Shown here piece by piece: positions 8,981-53,696 of a stretch of 64,000 bases of DNA. The position numbers were made by a program, and so were the translations under genes. The notes beneath the pieces were generated by a model. It was not told the DNA's origin. It was given only the letters and a program-made list of their open reading frames with translations, and did no database searches. The stretch covers positions 186,898 through 250,897 of the forward strand of contig NZ_SJPS01000002.1 in NCBI RefSeq assembly GCF_007860015.1, given 5' to 3'. Every line of letters starts with the position of its first letter. Position 1 is the stretch's first letter. The DNA is from Bythopirellula polymerisocia. GTDB taxonomy: Bacteria > Planctomycetota > Planctomycetia > Pirellulales > Lacipirellulaceae.

Positions 8981-9160
8981 TCAATATTCCTTCTTCACAG
9001 AACTAAGCCGCTCAATCTGCACTACATTTTTTGCATTTGACGAGCAACTGCCACAACTACCGCACCCTGACGAAGTTCCTTTTACAAATCGTAACCAAGC
9101 TAGGCGACCGAGGTAGGCCGCGGCGGCGAGGACGATCAATATGGCCAAAGTGTCTTGCAT
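8981..9160 (-). CDS. FeoB-associated Cys-rich membrane protein
   Basis: A 59-residue protein: an N-terminal membrane helix (residues 4-25, LAILIVLAAAAYLGRLAWL), a cysteine cluster CGSCGSC near 33-39 and a basic tail ending KKEY. This is the usual form of the small proteins encoded directly after feoB (FeoB_associated family), whose role is unsettled; the cysteines could handle iron or act as a partner for FeoB. The ATG at 9160 lies two bases after the feoB stop codon, which supports translational coupling and membership of the feo operon. A longer frame starting within feoB exists but was rejected because the family starts at the membrane helix. Confidence 0.82.
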   Translation of the reverse strand: MQDTLAILIVLAAAAYLGRLAWLRFVKGTSSGCGSCGSCSSNAKNVVQIERLSSVKKEY

Positions 9161-12028: not shown

Positions 12029-13501
12029 TCAGCGATCCTTGAGTGCCGCCACCAATTCCATCAAGACCTGCTTGGCATCACCGAAGAGCATCAAGCAGTT
12101 GTCAGCTGCAAAAAGTGGGTTGGGAATACCTGCGAAACCAGGGCTAAGGCTCCGTTTCACCACTATCACCGTACGGGCATCTCCGACATTGAGAATCGGC
12201 ATTCCCGCAATCGGGCTTGAAGGATCGGTATTCGCCACGGGGTTAACGACGTCGTTCGCACCGATCACAATTGCTGCGTCGCATTGAGAAAATGTCGGGT
12301 TGATTTCGTCCATTTCCTTGAGTTGGTCATAGGGAACATCGGCTTCGGCGAGCAGTACATTCATATGGCCAGGCATGCGGCCTGCGACCGGATGAATCGC
12401 GTATTCGACGGTTACCCCCTCAGATTCAAGCAATGTGGCCATTTCACGGACTATGTGCTGGGCCTGGGCGACAGCCAAGCCGTAGCCCGGCACCACGACG
12501 ACACGTTGCACTCCGTCGAGCAGCATGGCCACCTCTTCGGGAGAGGTACTCTTGATCTTGCCGGCGTAGACCTCGTCGTCACTTGGGCCGTCAGCACTCG
12601 GTTCAAATTTGGCAAACAGCACATTGAGAAGCGAACGATTCATCGCCTTACACATGATATTTGTGAGGATAATCCCCGAGGCCCCGACGAGTGCCCCAGC
12701 CACGATCAGCACATTGTTATTGATGACGAATCCGGCAGCCGAGGCTGCCAACCCCGAGTAGCTGTTCAAGAGTGCAATCACCACGGGCATGTCGGCACCT
12801 CCGATTGGAGTGACCAGGAACACCCCTAACACTAGTGCTATCGTCGTTAGCAGAAAATATTCCCAAGCTGATCCATCCATCATGTTGAGGCACAGGATTA
12901 ATGTGACGGCAATCAAGACGGCATTGATAATTTGATGCCCAGGGAGGCTGAATGGCTTTTTGAACTGCGAAAGTTCTTGCAACTTGCCAGCGGCTACTAG
13001 GGATCCGGTAAAGGTGACCGAACCAATTAGTCCCGCCAGCCCCGCAGCGAGTCCCGCCACCGCAATATTTCCCGATGTGGGGGCACTGCGTAAGACTTCA
13101 GCCCCCGCGACCAATACAGAGGCAATGCCGCCAAAGCCGTTGAACAACGCCACCAATTGTGGCATTTGAGTCATCTGGACGGTGTTGGCAAACCAGGTTC
13201 CCGCCGCCGTTCCGACGGCTATGCCTGCGATCGCCACTGGCCAACTTACTTGGCCTCCGACCAGAGTGACCAAAACGGCAATAAGCATGCCAGCGGCTCC
13301 GAGCAGATTCCCCCGGACGGCGGTCCTCGGGTGGGTCAGCCCCTTGATGCCCATGATAAATAGCACAGAGGCGACTAAATATCCCAGGTTGGAAAACTCG
13401 GACAAAGAGGCTACTTCAGCTACCTTTTCGGCAGCCTTGGCAACTGGCTTTTCGAGCCCTTGCTCGGCCATCACAAACTGTTTCAGCAAGATGTCAAACA
13501 C
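12029..13501 (-). CDS. pntB: NAD(P) transhydrogenase subunit beta (PntB)
   Basis: Membrane and NADP(H)-binding subunit of the proton-translocating transhydrogenase, which uses the proton gradient to make NADPH from NADH. The 490-residue protein has an N-terminal set of about nine membrane helices (for example LGYLVASVLFIMGIKGL and GLAAGLAGLIGSVTF), then the soluble dIII domain with the nucleotide motif VVVVPGYGLAVAQAQH near 340, the HPVAGRMPGHMNVLLAEADVPY-type segment, and KRSLSPGFAGIPNPLF near the C terminus, all hallmarks of PntB. It lies 28 bases after pntAb, last in a three-gene operon. Confidence 0.96.
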   Translation of the reverse strand: MFDILLKQFVMAEQGLEKPVAKAAEKVAEVASLSEFSNLGYLVASVLFIMGIKGLTHPRTAVRGNLLGAAGMLIAVLVTLVGGQVSWPVAIAGIAVGTAAGTWFANTVQMTQMPQLVALFNGFGGIASVLVAGAEVLRSAPTSGNIAVAGLAAGLAGLIGSVTFTGSLVAAGKLQELSQFKKPFSLPGHQIINAVLIAVTLILCLNMMDGSAWEYFLLTTIALVLGVFLVTPIGGADMPVVIALLNSYSGLAASAAGFVINNNVLIVAGALVGASGIILTNIMCKAMNRSLLNVLFAKFEPSADGPSDDEVYAGKIKSTSPEEVAMLLDGVQRVVVVPGYGLAVAQAQHIVREMATLLESEGVTVEYAIHPVAGRMPGHMNVLLAEADVPYDQLKEMDEINPTFSQCDAAIVIGANDVVNPVANTDPSSPIAGMPILNVGDARTVIVVKRSLSPGFAGIPNPLFAADNCLMLFGDAKQVLMELVAALKDR

Positions 13502-13896: not shown

Positions 13897-15105
13897 CTAT
13901 GATTCGCTCGCCAAGTGATCTACGGGAGGTGATGCTGGTGGTAATACGAGCGGCTCTTGACCTAACATGCCGCGCAGACGACTGTTTTGGACTTGGCCAT
14001 CCTTGGCAACCAGCGTGTCGCGGATGATTTCATCTTTTTGATCCATTTCCAGTTCTCCTGCCTTGGTCATAAGCAGGAGGAAAGTGACCAAATTCTTGGC
14101 GTACATTTGGCTGGCATGTTGGGGGACTCCGGCGGGGAGATTGGTGGGGCCAAGAATGGTCACACCGTGCTCTACCACTGTCTGGTCCGGCTGCGAAAGG
14201 CAACAATTACCGCCTCGTTCGGCTGCCAGGTCTACGATCACCGAGCCCGGTCGCATTCGCTTGACCGCATCCTCGGTGATCAACAAAGGCGATGGTCGGC
14301 CGGGAATAGCAGCCGTGCTGATGCACACATCGCAATCGGCGATCACATCGGCCAGTTGTTCCTGTTGTCGGCGGACTTGGTCTTCACTGAGTTCCTTGGC
14401 GTAGCCCCCTTTGTCTTCGGAACCGGCAGTGTCGAGATTCAGTTCGACAAATTTTGCTCCTAGGCTTTCGATCTGCTCTTTCACCACGGGCCGTACGTCG
14501 TAGGCCTGCACGATGGCACCCAAACGACGGGACGAAGCGATTGCCTGTAGTCCTGCCACTCCTGCGCCAATGACTAAAACTTTTGAAGCGACGAGAGTAC
14601 CCGCAGCAGTCATGAGCATGGGAAACATCTTCGGCAAGTGATCGGCGGCCTTCAATACAGATTTGTACCCCGCAATGGTCGCCATCGACGAAAGCACGTC
14701 CATGCTCTGTGCACGCGTAATGCGCGGGATCAGTTCCATCGCAAACACTATCGCGCCGCGCTCGGCCAATTCTTGGATCGCTTGGGGTTTGCCGAGAGGA
14801 TCGCAACATCCTACAAGGACTTGGTCACGACGGATAAGGTCTAAATCTGCACGACCAGCCTCAGGATTGGCACCCAGACAACGGACTTGCAAGATAACGT
14901 CTGACTGGGAATATGCCGCCTGGCGATCGGGAACAATTTCCGCACCCTTGGCTTGGTAATCGGCGTCTGGGAAACCGGCGGCCACTCCGGCCCCTGTTTC
15001 AATAATCACTTGCCAGCCTGCCTTTATAAGGGGTGCAAGCAGGTCAGGCACCAGCGCCACACGATTTTCGCCTGGGTACGTTTCTCGGAGGACAGCAACT
15101 TTCAT
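13897..15105 (-). CDS. pntAa: NAD(P) transhydrogenase subunit alpha part 1 (PntAa)
   Basis: NAD(H)-binding soluble subunit (dI) of the transhydrogenase, 402 residues, related to alanine dehydrogenase. It starts MKVAVLRETYPGENRVALVP, the family N terminus. The Rossmann motif VLVIGAGVAGLQAIASSRRLGA lies around residue 175, followed by YDVRPVVKEQIESLGAKF. The RQQEQLADVIADCDVCISTA segment carries the mobile loop region. The protein ends in a Pro-rich tail (VLPPASPPV) where fused PntA proteins would continue into membrane helices, which confirms the split-subunit form. First gene of the pntAa-pntAb-pntB operon. Confidence 0.95.
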   Translation of the reverse strand: MKVAVLRETYPGENRVALVPDLLAPLIKAGWQVIIETGAGVAAGFPDADYQAKGAEIVPDRQAAYSQSDVILQVRCLGANPEAGRADLDLIRRDQVLVGCCDPLGKPQAIQELAERGAIVFAMELIPRITRAQSMDVLSSMATIAGYKSVLKAADHLPKMFPMLMTAAGTLVASKVLVIGAGVAGLQAIASSRRLGAIVQAYDVRPVVKEQIESLGAKFVELNLDTAGSEDKGGYAKELSEDQVRRQQEQLADVIADCDVCISTAAIPGRPSPLLITEDAVKRMRPGSVIVDLAAERGGNCCLSQPDQTVVEHGVTILGPTNLPAGVPQHASQMYAKNLVTFLLLMTKAGELEMDQKDEIIRDTLVAKDGQVQNSRLRGMLGQEPLVLPPASPPVDHLASES

Positions 15106-38004: not shown

Positions 38005-39030
38005 GTGGCCCTCGCCGACTTTCTCGCCAATCTGGATTCCCTGGCCGATGAGGCTCAGGCTCGGTTCACAGCCGCTGTCGATGCTGCTGCGCTCGAAGAA
38101 GCAAGGGTTGCATTTCTGGGAGCTAAGGCGGGCAAGCTTCGCCAATCGCAAAAGGGTCTCGGCAAGGTCCCCCCTGCAGACAAGCCTGCAGCCGGAAAGC
38201 GTTTCAACGAAGTTAAGACTCTCGTTGAAGCTGCTTTTGAGGGCGCCCAGGCGCGGCTAACTTCCGGCGAAACCTCAAGCGGCGAGGCCTTCGATGTAAC
38301 GCTGCCTGGAAAGGCCCGCCGGATTGGTCATCTGCACCCGATTACTCAGACCATCCGCTCGATGAAGGAGATCATGGGGCGGCTTGGTTTCACTGCCGTC
38401 GAAGGGCCTGAGATCGAAGACGAATGGCATAATTTCGAGGCGCTCAATATCCCGTTAGTGCATCCGGCCCGGGACCCGCTTGATAATTTTTATCTAGGCG
38501 GTGAGAACGCGGCCGCCGAAGCGGCCTCACCTCTTCTCTTGAGAAGTCAGACGAGTACTGTGCAGATTCGCGTGATGGAATCGACGCCGCCGCCGGTTCG
38601 AATCATATCGCTCGGTCGGGTGTATCGACCAGACACGGCAGACGCAACACACTATCCGATGTTTCATCAGATCGAGGGGTTGTTGGTAGATCGCGGCGTG
38701 ACGATGGCCGACCTCAAGAGTGTGCTGCGGCTTTTCTGTCAAAGCTACTTTGGCGGGGATAACGAAGTGCACATCCGCTTTCGTCCGTCCTTTTTCCCTT
38801 TCACCGAGCCAAGTGTCGAAGTAGACATGAACTGGCAAGGAGGATGGATGGAAATGGGAGGTGCCGGCATGGTCGATCCCAACGTGCTGCGTGCAGTCGG
38901 CTACGACCCCGAAGAAGTGACCGGGTTTGCCTTCGGCTTGGGAGTCGAGCGGGTTTGCATGCGACAGCATGGCATCACTGATATTCGGGCGATTTACCAG
39001 AACGACGTCCGATTTCTCGAGCAATTTTAG
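38005..39030 (+). CDS. pheS: Phenylalanyl-tRNA synthetase alpha subunit
   Basis: Catalytic alpha subunit of the alpha2-beta2 enzyme charging tRNA-Phe, 341 residues. The N-terminal coiled-coil arm (residues 1-85, [15 protein letters not shown]) is followed by the class II core: motif 1 [19 protein letters not shown], motif 2 [15 protein letters not shown] and [20 protein letters not shown], and motif 3 [14 protein letters not shown]. It starts at a GTG with GGAGG nine bases upstream, 21 bases after rplT. In most genomes pheT follows directly; here a four-helix-bundle gene with repeat-like flanks intervenes. Confidence 0.96.
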
Positions 39031-39074
39031 AGTAGAGGTAAGAGGTTGGTGGCTAGAGGCTAGTGAGGGATACA
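39031..39074. repeat. Left flank of the inserted four-helix-bundle gene (AGAGGTTAG-type words)
   Basis: Contains AGAGGTAAGAGGTTGG and GGCTAGAGGCTAGTGAGGG immediately after the pheS stop. These words are the reverse complement type of the TCTAACCTC copies at 39449-39480, so the inserted gene is bracketed by an imperfect inverted repeat. Confidence 0.55.
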
Positions 39075-39461
39075 ATGGGTTCTGACATTCGCAGCCATCA
39101 TGACCTAAAAGTTTGGCAACTGGGAATGGATCTAACTGAGAAGATATATACGCTTACAAATTCCTTTCCCCGGGAAGAAATGTACGGTCTCACTAGCCAA
39201 CTACGTCGAGCGGCAAGTTCAATTCCAGCCAATATTGCTGAAGGCAACGGGCGAGATTCGACAAGAGAATATTTGCACCATCTCTCGTTTGCTGTAGGTT
39301 CATTGTGCGAAGTCGAGACCTTCTTGCAACTCAGTCTACGATTGAAATATGGTAATTCTAAACACATACAGGAATTGATGAATCTATTGGCAGAGGAAGG
39401 GCGAATGCTGCGTGGATTGCAAAAATCTCTGATGTCAAATCTCAATAATTCTAACCTCTAA
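39075..39461 (+). CDS. Four-helix-bundle protein (23S rRNA intervening-sequence protein family)
   Basis: A 128-residue helical protein of the IVP/S23 family (TIGR02436 type): HDLKVWQLGMDLTEKIYTLT, then SFPREEMYGLTSQLRRAASS, IPANIAEGNGRDSTREYLHH and a final helix LMNLLAEEGRMLRGLQKSL. The family was first seen encoded in intervening sequences of 23S rRNA genes, but it also occurs alone at many sites; its function is not established. Here it lies between pheS and pheT, where no gene is normally found, with related repeats on both sides. The ATG at 39075 starts in line with the family; a GTG at 39063 is possible. It is shorter in GC-rich codons than its neighbours, hinting at acquisition. Confidence 0.9.
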   Translation: MGSDIRSHHDLKVWQLGMDLTEKIYTLTNSFPREEMYGLTSQLRRAASSIPANIAEGNGRDSTREYLHHLSFAVGSLCEVETFLQLSLRLKYGNSKHIQELMNLLAEEGRMLRGLQKSLMSNLNNSNL

Positions 39462-39480
39462 CCTCAAGCTTCTAACCTCT
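39449..39480. repeat. Right flank of the inserted gene (TCTAACCTC copies)
   Basis: TTCTAACCTC, TAACCTC and TTCTAACCTCT in 32 bases, running from the last codons of the inserted gene directly into the pheT ATG at 39481. No Shine-Dalgarno sequence remains before pheT, so pheT translation may depend on coupling to the inserted gene. Confidence 0.65.
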
Positions 39481-41496
39481 ATGATTGTCTCTTGGAATTG
39501 GTTAAAAGATTACGTCGCGCTCTCGATGTCCGCAGATGAGCTGACCGAGCGGCTAACGCTCACAGGTCTGAATCTGGAAGGGGTTTCTCAGATTGGTGAC
39601 GACACGGCCATTGATCTGGAAGTGACCAGTAATCGGCCCGATTGCCTGGGACATATTGGAGTGGCGCGCGAGGTGGCGGTGCTGTGGGAGAGCCAACTTA
39701 AGATTCCCGACGCGAAACCGCAAGCGAAGGGGCCGGGTGTTGATGGACTGGCCAGCGTCGCGCTGGAATGTCCCGATTTGTGCCCGCGATATACAGCCCG
39801 AGTGATTCGCGGAGTAAAGGTCGGCCAAAGTCCCGAGTGGCTTGCGGGCCGACTGCGGAGCGTGGGAATCGCGGTTATCAATAATGTGGTCGATATTTCA
39901 AATTACGTGATGCTGGAATGTGGTCAGCCGTTGCATGCGTTCGACTTTGCGAAGCTCTCAGGTCACAAAATCATCGTTCGACGCGCGCGGATAGGCGAGA
40001 AGTTTGTCGCTATCAATCACCAGACCTACGAACTCAACGCAGACACCTGTGTGATTGCCGATGCAGAAAAGGCAGTCGCCTTGGGTGGTGTGATGGGAGG
40101 GGCAACCAGCGAAGTAAGCGACGCGACAACCGACCTCTTGATCGAAGCCGCCGACTTCTCTCAACTCTCAGTTCGCAACACAGCCCGTCGGCTGAATCTG
40201 CATAGCCCCTCCTCCTATCGATTCGAAAGAGGGGTCGATCCCGAGGGAATCGACTGGGCCAGTCGCCGGTGCTGCGAGCTGATCCTGGAACTGGCCGGGG
40301 GAGAACTTGCCGACGGGGTCATTGATGTCGGCGCGCAGTCTCCTCCACGAGAACCGGTAAAACTGCGGTTCGATCAATTGGAAAGGATTTTGGGAATCCG
40401 CATCCCTGACGAGCGTGTTCGACAGATCCTTACCGCCTTGGGTAACGACGAAACTCATGTTTGCGATCACTGCGTAAAAGTAGTGCCACCGAGTTGGCGG
40501 GCCGATCTCACGCGAGAAATCGACTTAGTTGAAGAGGTTGCTCGAATTCATGGTTACGAAGAAATCCCCGAGGATGCGGGGGTAAAGATGGTCGCATCAA
40601 CACGCAGTCGAGAAGATCGTGTGCTCGATCAGGTTCGTGATTCGATGGTGGCTCTTGGCTTCGATGAAGCGATGACCATTAGTGCGGTCGAGAGCACCTG
40701 GGTCGATCCATTTCGACCCTGGAGTTCGGCCACGCCGCTTTCCACCAGCACTCCTGTGCTAAGAGGGGCCAACCATCTGCGTCAAAGCTTACTCCCCAGC
40801 CTTCTGGCGGCCCGTCGGATCAATGAAACACTTTCCAACAATGTGATCGAACTCTTTGAAATCGCGGAGGTTTATCTCCCGCAGTCGAGTGGTCTGCCCG
40901 ATCAACGAAGGATGTTGGGCCTCTCCAGCGGTGGTGGATTCCTGGAACTCAAGGGAGTGATCGAGACCTTTCTAGACAGTATCTCACCCGGCTCAAAGCT
41001 CGATGCAACAATTTACGATTCACCTCTCTTTGCGACAGGGCGAGGGGCAGAACTAAAGCTCGGTGATCGGATATTCGGCTATCTCGGCGAAGTTAGCCAA
41101 TTGGCTTGCGATCAGTTTGAGCTCCGCAGTGCGAGTTCCGTCGCGGAAATTGATCTCAGTGTTTTGATTGACACTGCTGTCCTTGTCCGCTCGGCAGAGG
41201 AATTATCACCTTTCCCTCCGATGGGCCGCGACATGAACATCGTAGTTGACGAGCAGGTGGCGTGGGCGGACGTCGAGAAAATCGTCCGGGCCGGCAGCGG
41301 CGAGCTGCTGGAAACACTCGTTTTCCAGGAAGAGTTCCGCAGCAAAGAAAAGTTAGGACCGGGCAAGAAGAGCCTGCTATTTTCGATTCAACTTCGCTCG
41401 GCCAAGGGTACGCTGACCAACGAACAAGCAGACGAAGTCCGGGACAATCTGGTGGCAGAGTTAGGCAAACAACTCGGAGGACAACTACGGGCTTGA
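39481..41496 (+). CDS. pheT: Phenylalanyl-tRNA synthetase beta subunit, form without tRNA-binding domain
   Basis: Beta subunit, 671 residues, which binds tRNA and edits Tyr-tRNA-Phe. It begins IVSWNWLKDYVALSMSADEL, but the EMAP-II-like tRNA-binding insertion normally found at about residues 40-150 is missing: GLNLEGVSQIGDD runs straight into DLEVTSNRPDCLGHIGVARE. The B3/B4 editing domain (NNVVDISNYVMLECGQPLH), B5 and catalytic-like domains and the C-terminal FDX-ACB anticodon domain (PFPPMGRDMNIVVDE to LGKQLGG) are present. That explains the 120-residue deficit from the usual near-800. The start sits directly after repeat sequence with no ribosome site. Confidence 0.95.
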   Translation: MIVSWNWLKDYVALSMSADELTERLTLTGLNLEGVSQIGDDTAIDLEVTSNRPDCLGHIGVAREVAVLWESQLKIPDAKPQAKGPGVDGLASVALECPDLCPRYTARVIRGVKVGQSPEWLAGRLRSVGIAVINNVVDISNYVMLECGQPLHAFDFAKLSGHKIIVRRARIGEKFVAINHQTYELNADTCVIADAEKAVALGGVMGGATSEVSDATTDLLIEAADFSQLSVRNTARRLNLHSPSSYRFERGVDPEGIDWASRRCCELILELAGGELADGVIDVGAQSPPREPVKLRFDQLERILGIRIPDERVRQILTALGNDETHVCDHCVKVVPPSWRADLTREIDLVEEVARIHGYEEIPEDAGVKMVASTRSREDRVLDQVRDSMVALGFDEAMTISAVESTWVDPFRPWSSATPLSTSTPVLRGANHLRQSLLPSLLAARRINETLSNNVIELFEIAEVYLPQSSGLPDQRRMLGLSSGGGFLELKGVIETFLDSISPGSKLDATIYDSPLFATGRGAELKLGDRIFGYLGEVSQLACDQFELRSASSVAEIDLSVLIDTAVLVRSAEELSPFPPMGRDMNIVVDEQVAWADVEKIVRAGSGELLETLVFQEEFRSKEKLGPGKKSLLFSIQLRSAKGTLTNEQADEVRDNLVAELGKQLGGQLRA

Positions 41497-52252: not shown

Positions 52253-52260
52253 TCGCACTA

Positions 52261-52330
52261 ACCACTCACCATTCACCATTCACCATTCACCACTCACCAT
52301 TCACCACTCACCACTCACCACTCACCACTC
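52261..52330. repeat. Tandem heptamer array (ACCAYTC), ten units
   Basis: Ten consecutive copies of ACCACTC or ACCATTC, 70 bases in all, ending at the stop codon of the 52329-52685 gene. The same repeat type, inverted and degenerate, adjoins the third copy of the GTTAGCCGCGACGCG element at 59113-59142, so array and element appear linked. Arrays of this kind can change length by slippage. Confidence 0.85.
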
Positions 52331-52685
52331 AAATCTCCACATGCGTCACCCCACCAACTTCATCAAAGTGGCCAATCTTAAGAACCACCCCATCCGATCC
52401 TGGCATCTCGGCCACAAAGACCGGATCGCAAACCACGATCGGCGGCGTCGACACAACCCAGACGAGCGTCGATACGTACGATGCCGTTAGCGACAACGCG
52501 ACGAACCAAGGCACGGTCCCAGCAGCAATACTCAGCAACTGGGCTCGCTTGGCCCGTGAGAGCTCATGCTCGATGCAGTATTGCTCGATCACATCGGTCC
52601 GCTCAAGCGGACTGGTCAGCTCCAGTATTTCGTCAAAGCTGCAGCCGTCCGTGCGGTACTTGCGATGGGTTCGGGCGACTCCCAA
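52329..52685 (-). CDS. Hypothetical small membrane protein with uncertain start
   Basis: A 118-residue open frame with one hydrophobic helix (IAAGTVPWFVALSLTASYVS and TLVWVV) and a protein-like first half (EILELTSPLERTDVIEQYC). No family known. It is assigned a TTG start; the frame stays open further upstream through ARQKAIEAYHAQLEF-like sequence into the palindrome at 52757-52801, with no ATG. So the 5' end may have been replaced by repeat sequence, or the gene may be a fragment. The stop lies at the end of the heptamer array. Confidence 0.4.
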   Translation of the reverse strand: MGVARTHRKYRTDGCSFDEILELTSPLERTDVIEQYCIEHELSRAKRAQLLSIAAGTVPWFVALSLTASYVSTLVWVVSTPPIVVCDPVFVAEMPGSDGVVLKIGHFDEVGGVTHVEI

Positions 52686-52801: not shown

Positions 52802-53696
52802 CTTCATCGGTCCCCTGGCTTGCCTCCTTCTATCCAGCCAAATAGGGTCCATCTGAGTAAAGCATGTGCTGGGTTCATCGAATTGGGGTGGCTCCGATAC
52901 CTGGGCGTGAGTGGCGGCATTTTCTGCTCTGGCAGTCAGGGCCTAACCCTATACCGAAATTTCTCTAATCCCCTCCCCGGCCGCTACCGCGTCCGACCCT
53001 CCCGGGGGAGGGTATTGGGAGAGGCAGTTTGTCAAAAGTTTGCTCACGCTTTTGGCCGCGCGGTTTGTTAGAATCTCAAAGTAAGCTGTTAGCCGTTAGC
53101 TTTTAGCTTTTAGCCAGAGATCGCCGCAGTTTCGCCTTTTTTCTGGCCAAATGCTAATAGCTAATAAGCCTGAAGCAGCAAACACCGTGGATTCAAGTTA
53201 CTGGGTCGGCAACTGTTTTCACTTTGAGTTAGAATCACCCCTCGCAAAAGTTGCCGTGGCCCACGTTCGTGCTGCGCAGATCTTTGACAATCGAATCATT
53301 TCTCCCTAGCTCAGGTAGCCACCTCGCTCGCAGCGACTGGGCTAGGGATCCATCGGTAGAGTGCCTGGCCTTCGATTGCGCGAAGCGATTTATTTTTGTC
53401 ACGCGGAGAGGTAGTTTTGTATTACAAAACTCACATAAACCTAAAGAGTCGTTTGCTACACAAGTCCTGACCTGCAAATGAGTTGAAACGAACGTGAACA
53501 ATAGAAAATGAGGGAGTTTTGTTTTGTAAAAAAAGTTTTCTACGAAATGACCGTGACAAAACCCTTGCCGCGTTGCGCAGAAGCGAGCAAAGATAGTTGG
53601 CTTTACGCAGCTCGCCAGCGGACGCCTTGTCTGGAACATCCACCCCCTTGAAATCGGCCAATCTCAGTTTACTCAGTGTCCTCCTGTTCCAAAGTT
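52802..53696. other. Gene-poor intergenic stretch
   Basis: No convincing gene. It holds CCTCCC/GGGAGG-rich sequence near 52970-53020 (CCCTCCCGGGGGAGGG) and the TTAGC-type repeat at 53083-53169. Open frames on both strands lack ribosome sites and domains. Confidence 0.5.
53083..53169. repeat. GTTAGC/GCTAAT-type inverted repeat
   Basis: TGTTAGCCGTTAGCTTTTAG with a further CTTTTAGCCAGA at the left face GGCCAAATGCTAATAGCTA and ATAAG at the right. It is a degenerate inverted repeat of TTAGC words in the gene-poor stretch before katG. Confidence 0.5.

Follow-up and report, generated by a model that had tools for sequence, protein, structure and literature searches.

The IVP/S23 family (PF05635) is a widespread protein family of unknown function. 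Its solved relatives are, as we take it, pentameric rings. The family has been treated in the context of rRNA intervening sequences (IVS; PMC4990558), and its likeness to Avd has been discussed (PMC10053308). A second body of work concerns short repeats: arrays of heptamers in the gaps between genes of bacteria have repeatedly been catalogued, and an origin for them was never given. The heptanucleotide repeats of cyanobacteria (STRR) have been on record since 1990. Rehm et al. 2015 (PMC4692102) described quadruplex-forming GGGAATC and GGGGA(C/T)T heptamers in Xanthomonas and Nostoc, generally not associated with mobile elements, with 70–75 inverted heptamer pairs per Xanthomonas genome. MacGregor 2015 (PMC4679880) described TAACTGA heptamers in Beggiatoaceae as possible regulatory sites and proposed no mechanism for their spread.

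Here, we analyze a 64,000-nucleotide stretch of the genome of the planctomycete Bythopirellula polymerisocia (hereafter the window), in which the two subjects meet. The gene order is thrS-infC-rplT-pheS-[insert]-pheT, where the first three genes were named by reading of the open reading frames (ORFs) and where pheS and pheT are essential genes of a tRNA-charging enzyme; all window features given here lie on the forward strand. Upstream is pheS (38005..39030; ORF list, PF01409/PF02912), whose TAG stop stands at the foot of a left (5') arm at 39031..39064. This arm consists of degenerate G-rich heptamers (GAGGTAA/GAGGTTG/GTGGCTA/GAGGCTA; AGAGGTTAG type, full reading AGTAGAGGTAAGAGGTTGGTGGCTAGAGGCTAG), identified by direct reading, by self-match at lag 7, and by its inverted match to the right arm. 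The IVP/S23-family gene follows at 39063..39461, encoding 128 residues from the ATG at 39075 (39075-39461) or 132 from the alternative GTG at 39063. The right (3') arm at 39449..39480 carries the inverse-complement words TCTAACC/TCTAACC/TTCTAACC (TCTAACCTC type, full reading TTCTAACCTCTAACCTCAAGCTTCTAACCTCT), again by direct reading and lag-7 self-match, together with RNA-fold pairing to the left arm; it overlaps the last IVP codons and the stop and directly abuts the ATG (39481) of pheT (39481..41496; ORF list, PF03483, PF03484, PF17759, PF03147). Direct reading found no GGAG-like Shine-Dalgarno sequence in the right-arm words, in agreement with the earlier note on this DNA, which had them adjoining the pheT start without a ribosome site.

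The assignment of the gene is secure. A profile search matches its product to PF05635 with an E-value of 2.8e-37 (127.6 bits against a curated cut-off of 33.8) and to TIGR02436 with 4.4e-35, and the AlphaFold2 model is a four-helix bundle with a pLDDT of 95; score and fold together place it in the IVP/S23 family. The nearest fold in the PDB according to Foldseek is Xcc0516 from Xanthomonas campestris (2GSC, TM 0.86), followed by BT_0352 (2RLD) and then by Avd of a Bordetella phage retroelement (4DWL, TM 0.73); the fold also matches Avd in 8UB7, a ribonucleoprotein structure of diversity-generating retroelements (DGRs). For close IVP pairs, dN/dS is 0.02–0.14, and to judge by these sequences the protein is under purifying selection.

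The claim of an IVP-like gene between pheS and pheT bracketed by inverted words is likewise borne out by the flanks, whose inverted similarity of 15.8 stands at the 99.8th percentile when compared to 3000 positions with identical geometry across this genome. The arms match themselves at lag 7 (right 0.72, left 0.65), with values of 0.14–0.32 at other lags. With narrower flanks, this copy is among the weaker ones, scoring 12.8 and thus falling under the shuffle 99th percentile of 13.4, and the case therefore rests on the whole family.

We examined that family at several levels. The own genome holds seven IVP genes, every one with a separate inverted word pair, such as CGAGTTTCGAG, GTGATTGGTGATT, AGCTATTGGCTATT, and GGGGGAATG. 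Of the 14 genomes of the genus, 12 contain IVP matches, 45 altogether, and the layout is the same wherever it was read. Scanning named genomes with a profile built from a six-sequence IVP alignment, and choosing loci by a conserved motif, added 80 loci from many phyla; the loci span Planctomycetota, Cyanobacteriota, Chloroflexota, Pseudomonadota, Bacteroidota, and Acidobacteriota, among others. By reading of the flanks, the junctions include carA/carB in Ramlibacter, dnaK/dnaJ in Chitiniphilus, nuoC/nuoD in Bosea, and ruvA/ruvB in a betaproteobacterium. The largest number of matches within the family of the window genome, 20, occurs in one genome (G022), and these are mostly low-scoring, more distant members. 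In a plasmid of Anabaena sp. 90 (L205, 1495-1863), the cas6 and cas4 genes of a type I-D CRISPR operon are separated by an inserted IVP gene whose left-hand words are GGTGACA and whose right-hand words are CTGTCAC.

At the 111 loci with usable flanks, the IVP gene is bracketed by degenerate tandem 7-nt words that are inverted on the left relative to the right. The mean inverted similarity of the arms is 21.4 within a copy, compared to 9.9 between copies and 9.0 after shuffling; it exceeds the shuffle 99th percentile at 95 loci, while the same test found no significant arms at the other 16. For 58 copies, the own right arm is the best match among all 111. Self-match reaches 0.62 at lag 7, with 0.585 at lag 14, compared to 0.25–0.32 at lags that are not multiples of seven, and the 5' arm is G-rich, with G exceeding C in 87 of 95 cases (the cyanobacterial arms, for instance, are heptamers such as GGGAATA and GGGGATA). 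The word itself differs: 98 well-formed arms yield 73 distinct consensus words. What is conserved across arms is thus the 7-nt period and the purine bias, not the word. In copies at different sites, arm similarity is about 11 below 45% IVP identity and 27.4 at 65% identity or more. Arm words consequently follow the IVP lineage, so that the arms either move together with the gene or evolve jointly with it. This raises a sharp question, namely how two ends stay mutually matched while the end sequence varies between copies. An idea that the heptamers supply stop codons in every frame does not hold in general, as a stop is found in 46 of the 98 words, compared to 38.6 expected.

Neighbors on both sides share the strand of the IVP gene at 99 of 125 loci, where orientation was scored from amino-acid composition and not from gene annotation, longest-ORF calls having misjudged GC-rich loci. 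The unit hence lies mostly between co-directional genes, which reflects a preference for, or survival in, same-strand junctions. A rule that copies are always co-directional was discarded: it describes most of them and is broken by reversed copies, with L170, L174, and L206 opposed to their operons.

The earlier note had proposed that gene and flanks could form a mobile cassette, to be sought as empty sites in relatives and as further copies in the genome, and that the same gene at the same site in all relatives, with different flanks, would speak for a stable old arrangement. Both kinds of evidence were found. A second copy of the flank-gene-flank unit lies on another contig of the own genome (L007), 71% identical in DNA over 444 nt and sharing GAGGTTA words; the homology starts at the outer edge of the left arm, at about 39024, and stops within the right arm. 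In two close relatives, pheS and pheT overlap without an insert (G001, whose pheT is 85% identical, and G012), and among genus genomes with a readable junction an intact IVP gene is present at pheS-pheT only in the window genome (G000) and in G004; the sign of a stable arrangement named in the note is thus absent. The IVP of G004, like one present at this junction in a genome of another genus (G014), is accompanied by different words (GGGGCTG, GTGGCTA), and the three pheS-pheT IVPs do not form a clade in the IVP tree, in which some branches are weak. Different words per species at one junction can reflect either repeated insertion or a joint change of both arms. Two further genomes (G003, G013) have gene-less arrays at this junction, and in G010 arms and an IVP C-terminal remnant (EGRMLHGLRMSLQKKLNP) surround an unrelated zinc-ribbon ORF. 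As a separate observation on that locus (L045, 989-1500), the zinc-ribbon ORF stands where the remainder of the IVP gene would be, possibly an exchange of cargo. Four more pheS-pheT spacers of relatives (L049, L050, L052, L062) hold inverted repeats with 'CGCAAAG...CTTTGCG' or 'CGCGGAG...CTCCGCG' words that are not clearly heptameric.

These comparisons bear on the idea that the IVP gene is an old resident, long fixed in operons, and that the words are ordinary slippage repeats. Purifying selection fits such a resident, as does the occupation of the ABC-transporter, sucC/sucD, and RND efflux sites in several species. However, the pheS-pheT junction is empty in close relatives, at least two separate IVP lineages occupy the ABC-transporter junction (some branches of the tree again being weak), and the arms are inverted and specific to each copy, a pattern that slippage next to a gene does not yield. 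We therefore regard long residence as highly improbable overall, and for the plasmid element described next it is already refuted by a clean insertion with target duplication.

In a family of cyanobacterial plasmids, filled and empty sites occur within flanks that are 97–98% identical. The empty site (Tolypothrix PCC 7601, Nostoc linckia) reads AAAAAGTAATTAAC, or AAAGTTAAAAAGTAATTAACAAATAAATATG over a longer stretch, whereas the filled site (Trichormus variabilis, Scytonema) reads AAAAAGTAAT, then the element, then GTAATTAAC. In detail, AAAAAGTAAT is followed by a unit that begins with AAATCAGAATTCAG, contains the IVP gene, and ends with CTCCTGAGTTCTTCTTT, after which comes GTAATTAACAAAT; the inserted unit comprises both arms and the gene, and it is accompanied by a 5-bp target duplication, GTAAT. 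This was the only filled/empty pair with flanks similar enough for a clean reading. The same element (83%) sits at another site in Aulosira, where the homology is confined arm to arm, and Nostoc C052 retains a truncated relic at the first site. At a TraM-gene junction of Nostoc plasmids, three different units are found beside an empty relative: one contains an IVP gene and has GGGAACA arms, and the other two, with GGGAACT and AAAATTC words, respectively, are gene-less. In plasmid 2 of Aulosira, an IVP from a different subfamily lies reversed between two genes and is flanked on either side by AAAATTC arms. An imperfect duplication (GACCG/GACTCG) accompanies a gene-less hairpin (L211/L212), and at one site (L199) there is no target duplication and possibly a small deletion; the L166, L206, and Calothrix NIES-4105 sites have diverged too far for their boundaries to be placed. 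A search of 50,697 phage records for phages as carriers gave no match.

Filled and empty sites in near-identical flanks, the presence of the unit at different sites, and the one clean target duplication are what is expected of a mobile element. That arms and gene constitute one mobile unit that inserts at different sites is, in our judgment, very probable, and with the empty pheS-pheT junctions, the second genomic copy, and the plasmid pair the proposal of a mobile cassette has gained support. The window feature itself is probably one copy of this small element of about 430 bp, comprising a left heptamer array, the IVP gene, and an inverted right array. The 5-bp duplication, resting on one clean pair, leads us to conclude that the unit entered at a staggered break.

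An inverted-ended unit with a 5-bp duplication, found in imperfect form also at the gene-less hairpin (L211 vs L212), is what a passenger of a DDE transposon would look like, that is, an IVP gene carried as cargo where a host transposase recognizes the ends and makes the duplication. A transposase needs conserved ends, though, and the 73 words among 98 arms offer no common end sequence; the purifying selection on IVP likewise speaks against mere cargo. We consider such a passenger unlikely.

A further alternative is that the element spreads through an RNA copy, with IVP acting together with a reverse transcriptase in trans, like Avd in DGRs. The match of the fold to Avd (8UB7, 4DWL) and the weak sequence matches to bAvd and DivGenRetAVD are in line with this, and a short target duplication is compatible with it. 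Against it, the window element encodes no reverse transcriptase, and RVT_1 is absent from the IVP-rich genomes G016 (5 IVP genes), G042 (6), G014 (7), G017 (4), G009 (4), and G049 (4). Several IVP-rich genomes lack RVT_1, so that the element can be carried without a resident reverse transcriptase, and dependence on one found no support in the family-wide RVT_1 search. Spread as a retroelement thus appears improbable.

The mobile unit might also be shaped, or kept in place, at the RNA level. The mRNA of the window region has a predicted fold with z = -4.0, where left and right arm pair with each other and the resulting stem takes in the pheT AUG; the stop codon of the IVP gene lies 19 nt ahead of this AUG. 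From these two features, coupling of pheT translation to the insert, as the earlier note had suggested, is plausible at the level of the predicted fold. A stronger version has the unit retained at pheS-pheT for regulation, with ribosomes that finish IVP opening the stem and permitting pheT translation. The position of AUG and stop agrees with this, but pheS and pheT overlap without an insert in G001 and G012, and the content of the junction varies freely among relatives, leaving retention for regulation with a rather small probability. Alternatively, selection on an RNA stem could keep the arms complementary, as in 23S rRNA IVS, with an RNase III cut freeing the IVP message. Here, the paired arms of the window mRNA (z = -4.0) are joined by the precedent of the Coxiella IVS, which has complementary ends and is excised by RNase III (PMC4990558). 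G-U-compatible arm mismatches nevertheless show no excess (133 compared to 164 in the mirror class), and the operon-opposed copies L170, L174, and L206 do not fit. RNA-level compensatory selection on the arms thus gets no support from the wobble-mismatch asymmetry, and we hold it to be doubtful as the force that keeps the arms matched, although it could coexist with mobility.

Arrays without a gene also occur. In 464 kb of the own genome, we found 11 arrays at lag 7 and four at lag 14, a multiple of seven, compared to 0–1 at the other lags tested between 5 and 15; by extrapolation, gene-less arrays are several times as numerous as the arms that belong to the seven IVP genes of this genome. Their words score a mean of 17.6 against the own-genome IVP arms, compared to 12.3 ± 1.2 against seven foreign arms (60 draws) and 13.7 ± 1.4, with a maximum of 18.1, against arms of other genus members (40 draws). 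Gene-less heptamer hairpins with the words of resident elements thus occur in the same genome. The lag-7 scan found two in the window: an array of about 11 CACCATT/CACCACT units at 52255..52337, for which a search gave no clear inverted partner, and a hairpin at 53084..53164 (AGCTGTTAGCC...GCTAATAGCTAA; inverted partner score 13.4), whose word type is that of the resident IVP element L005. One gene-less copy in the own genome is a hairpin with a 13-nt loop directly ahead of the next gene.

Several gene-less copies have features of their own. The hairpin at 53084-53164 and positions 8508-8592 of L179 are copies of a dispersed repeat in opposite orientation, sharing loop and flanks and differing slightly in the heptamer arms. 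Elsewhere in the own genome (L191, G000:C2:300001-320000; 9049-9142, 12810-12990, and 14163-14412), heptamer hairpins are located in frame within the N-terminal leaders of consecutive prepilin-like genes and precede the hydrophobic start of the mature protein; insertions seem to be tolerated in this part, which prepilin peptidase likely removes. In a plasmid of Nostoc sp. C057 (L210, 1040-1380), a gene-less unit with AAAATTC arms surrounds a tRNA-like hairpin (TCAGTGGGGGCTTGAACCCACCACTGA), and in L202 and L203 solo arms are followed by similar sequence of the GGGGGATTCAGAC type.

As for how the unit might move, the arm-gene-arm unit holds the IVP gene only; no cutting or joining enzyme was found, and no Y1 transposase gene was seen inside it. 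We propose, tentatively, that the IVP protein, as a relative of Avd, would bind the heptamer arms of its own element as single-stranded or hairpin DNA (or as RNA), a possibility to which we give somewhat better than one chance in three. It would act in cis on the element that encodes it and in trans on hairpins without a gene, and a separate enzyme would make the staggered cut. Insertions between genes would be those that survive; there, the element would be read from the promoter of the host operon and its arms would fold into a stem around the ORF. The broader proposition, which we put a little short of an even chance, is that IVP genes define a class of mobile elements present in many phyla, with no recognizable recombinase and with copy-specific heptamer ends, which mobilizes gene-less hairpins in trans and of which the heptamers of cyanobacteria, Xanthomonas, and Beggiatoaceae are arms and relics. 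If true, one small type of element would explain both PF05635 and the heptamer arrays between genes. Operon expression may also be altered by the element, as it lands between essential genes that are transcribed together.

To the best of our knowledge, this is a widespread and apparently undescribed kind of mobile DNA; we found no literature joining IVP genes to heptamers, which is weak evidence, as the coverage was without preprints and most subscription journals. The closest described relatives are the 23S rRNA IVS of Leptospira and Coxiella, which share the S23/IVP family, an ORF within a stem loop of complementary ends, a length of about 430 nt, and a sporadic distribution. The analogy drawn in the earlier note therefore stands for the protein family and for the stem-with-ORF layout, the arms of the window copy pairing in the predicted fold, but not for the target: IVS replace loops of 23S rRNA helices, whereas the unit described here occupies gaps between protein genes such as pheS and pheT, and it has copy-specific heptamer-array ends and a target duplication. 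Avd of DGRs is similar in fold (TM 0.73 to 4DWL) and weakly in sequence; unlike DGRs, however, the IVP unit is without reverse transcriptase, template repeat, and variable repeat, and the window protein falls under the Avd equivalog cut-offs (DivGenRetAVD 32 bits compared to 80, bAvd 25 compared to 40), which places it outside that group.

MITEs and REP/RAYT elements are likewise small palindromic units between genes whose gene-less copies outnumber the gene-bearing ones, but their conserved ends are tied to a known transposase, while IVP arms conserve only period and purine bias and, unlike the ends of a classical inverted-repeat transposon or MITE, match within a copy and not between copies. 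The Xanthomonas and Nostoc heptamers resemble IVP arms as G-rich 7-nt units between co-directional genes, near stops and starts, although PMC4692102 makes no link to IVP. The TAACTGA repeats and the cyanobacterial STRR are similar in that they are heptamer arrays closely preceding start codons, with a scattered distribution over Beggiatoaceae, Cyanobacteria, and Bacteroidetes, and differ from IVP arms in being mostly direct arrays. The published GGGAATC and TAACTGA heptamers may be arms of IVP elements or relics of such arms.
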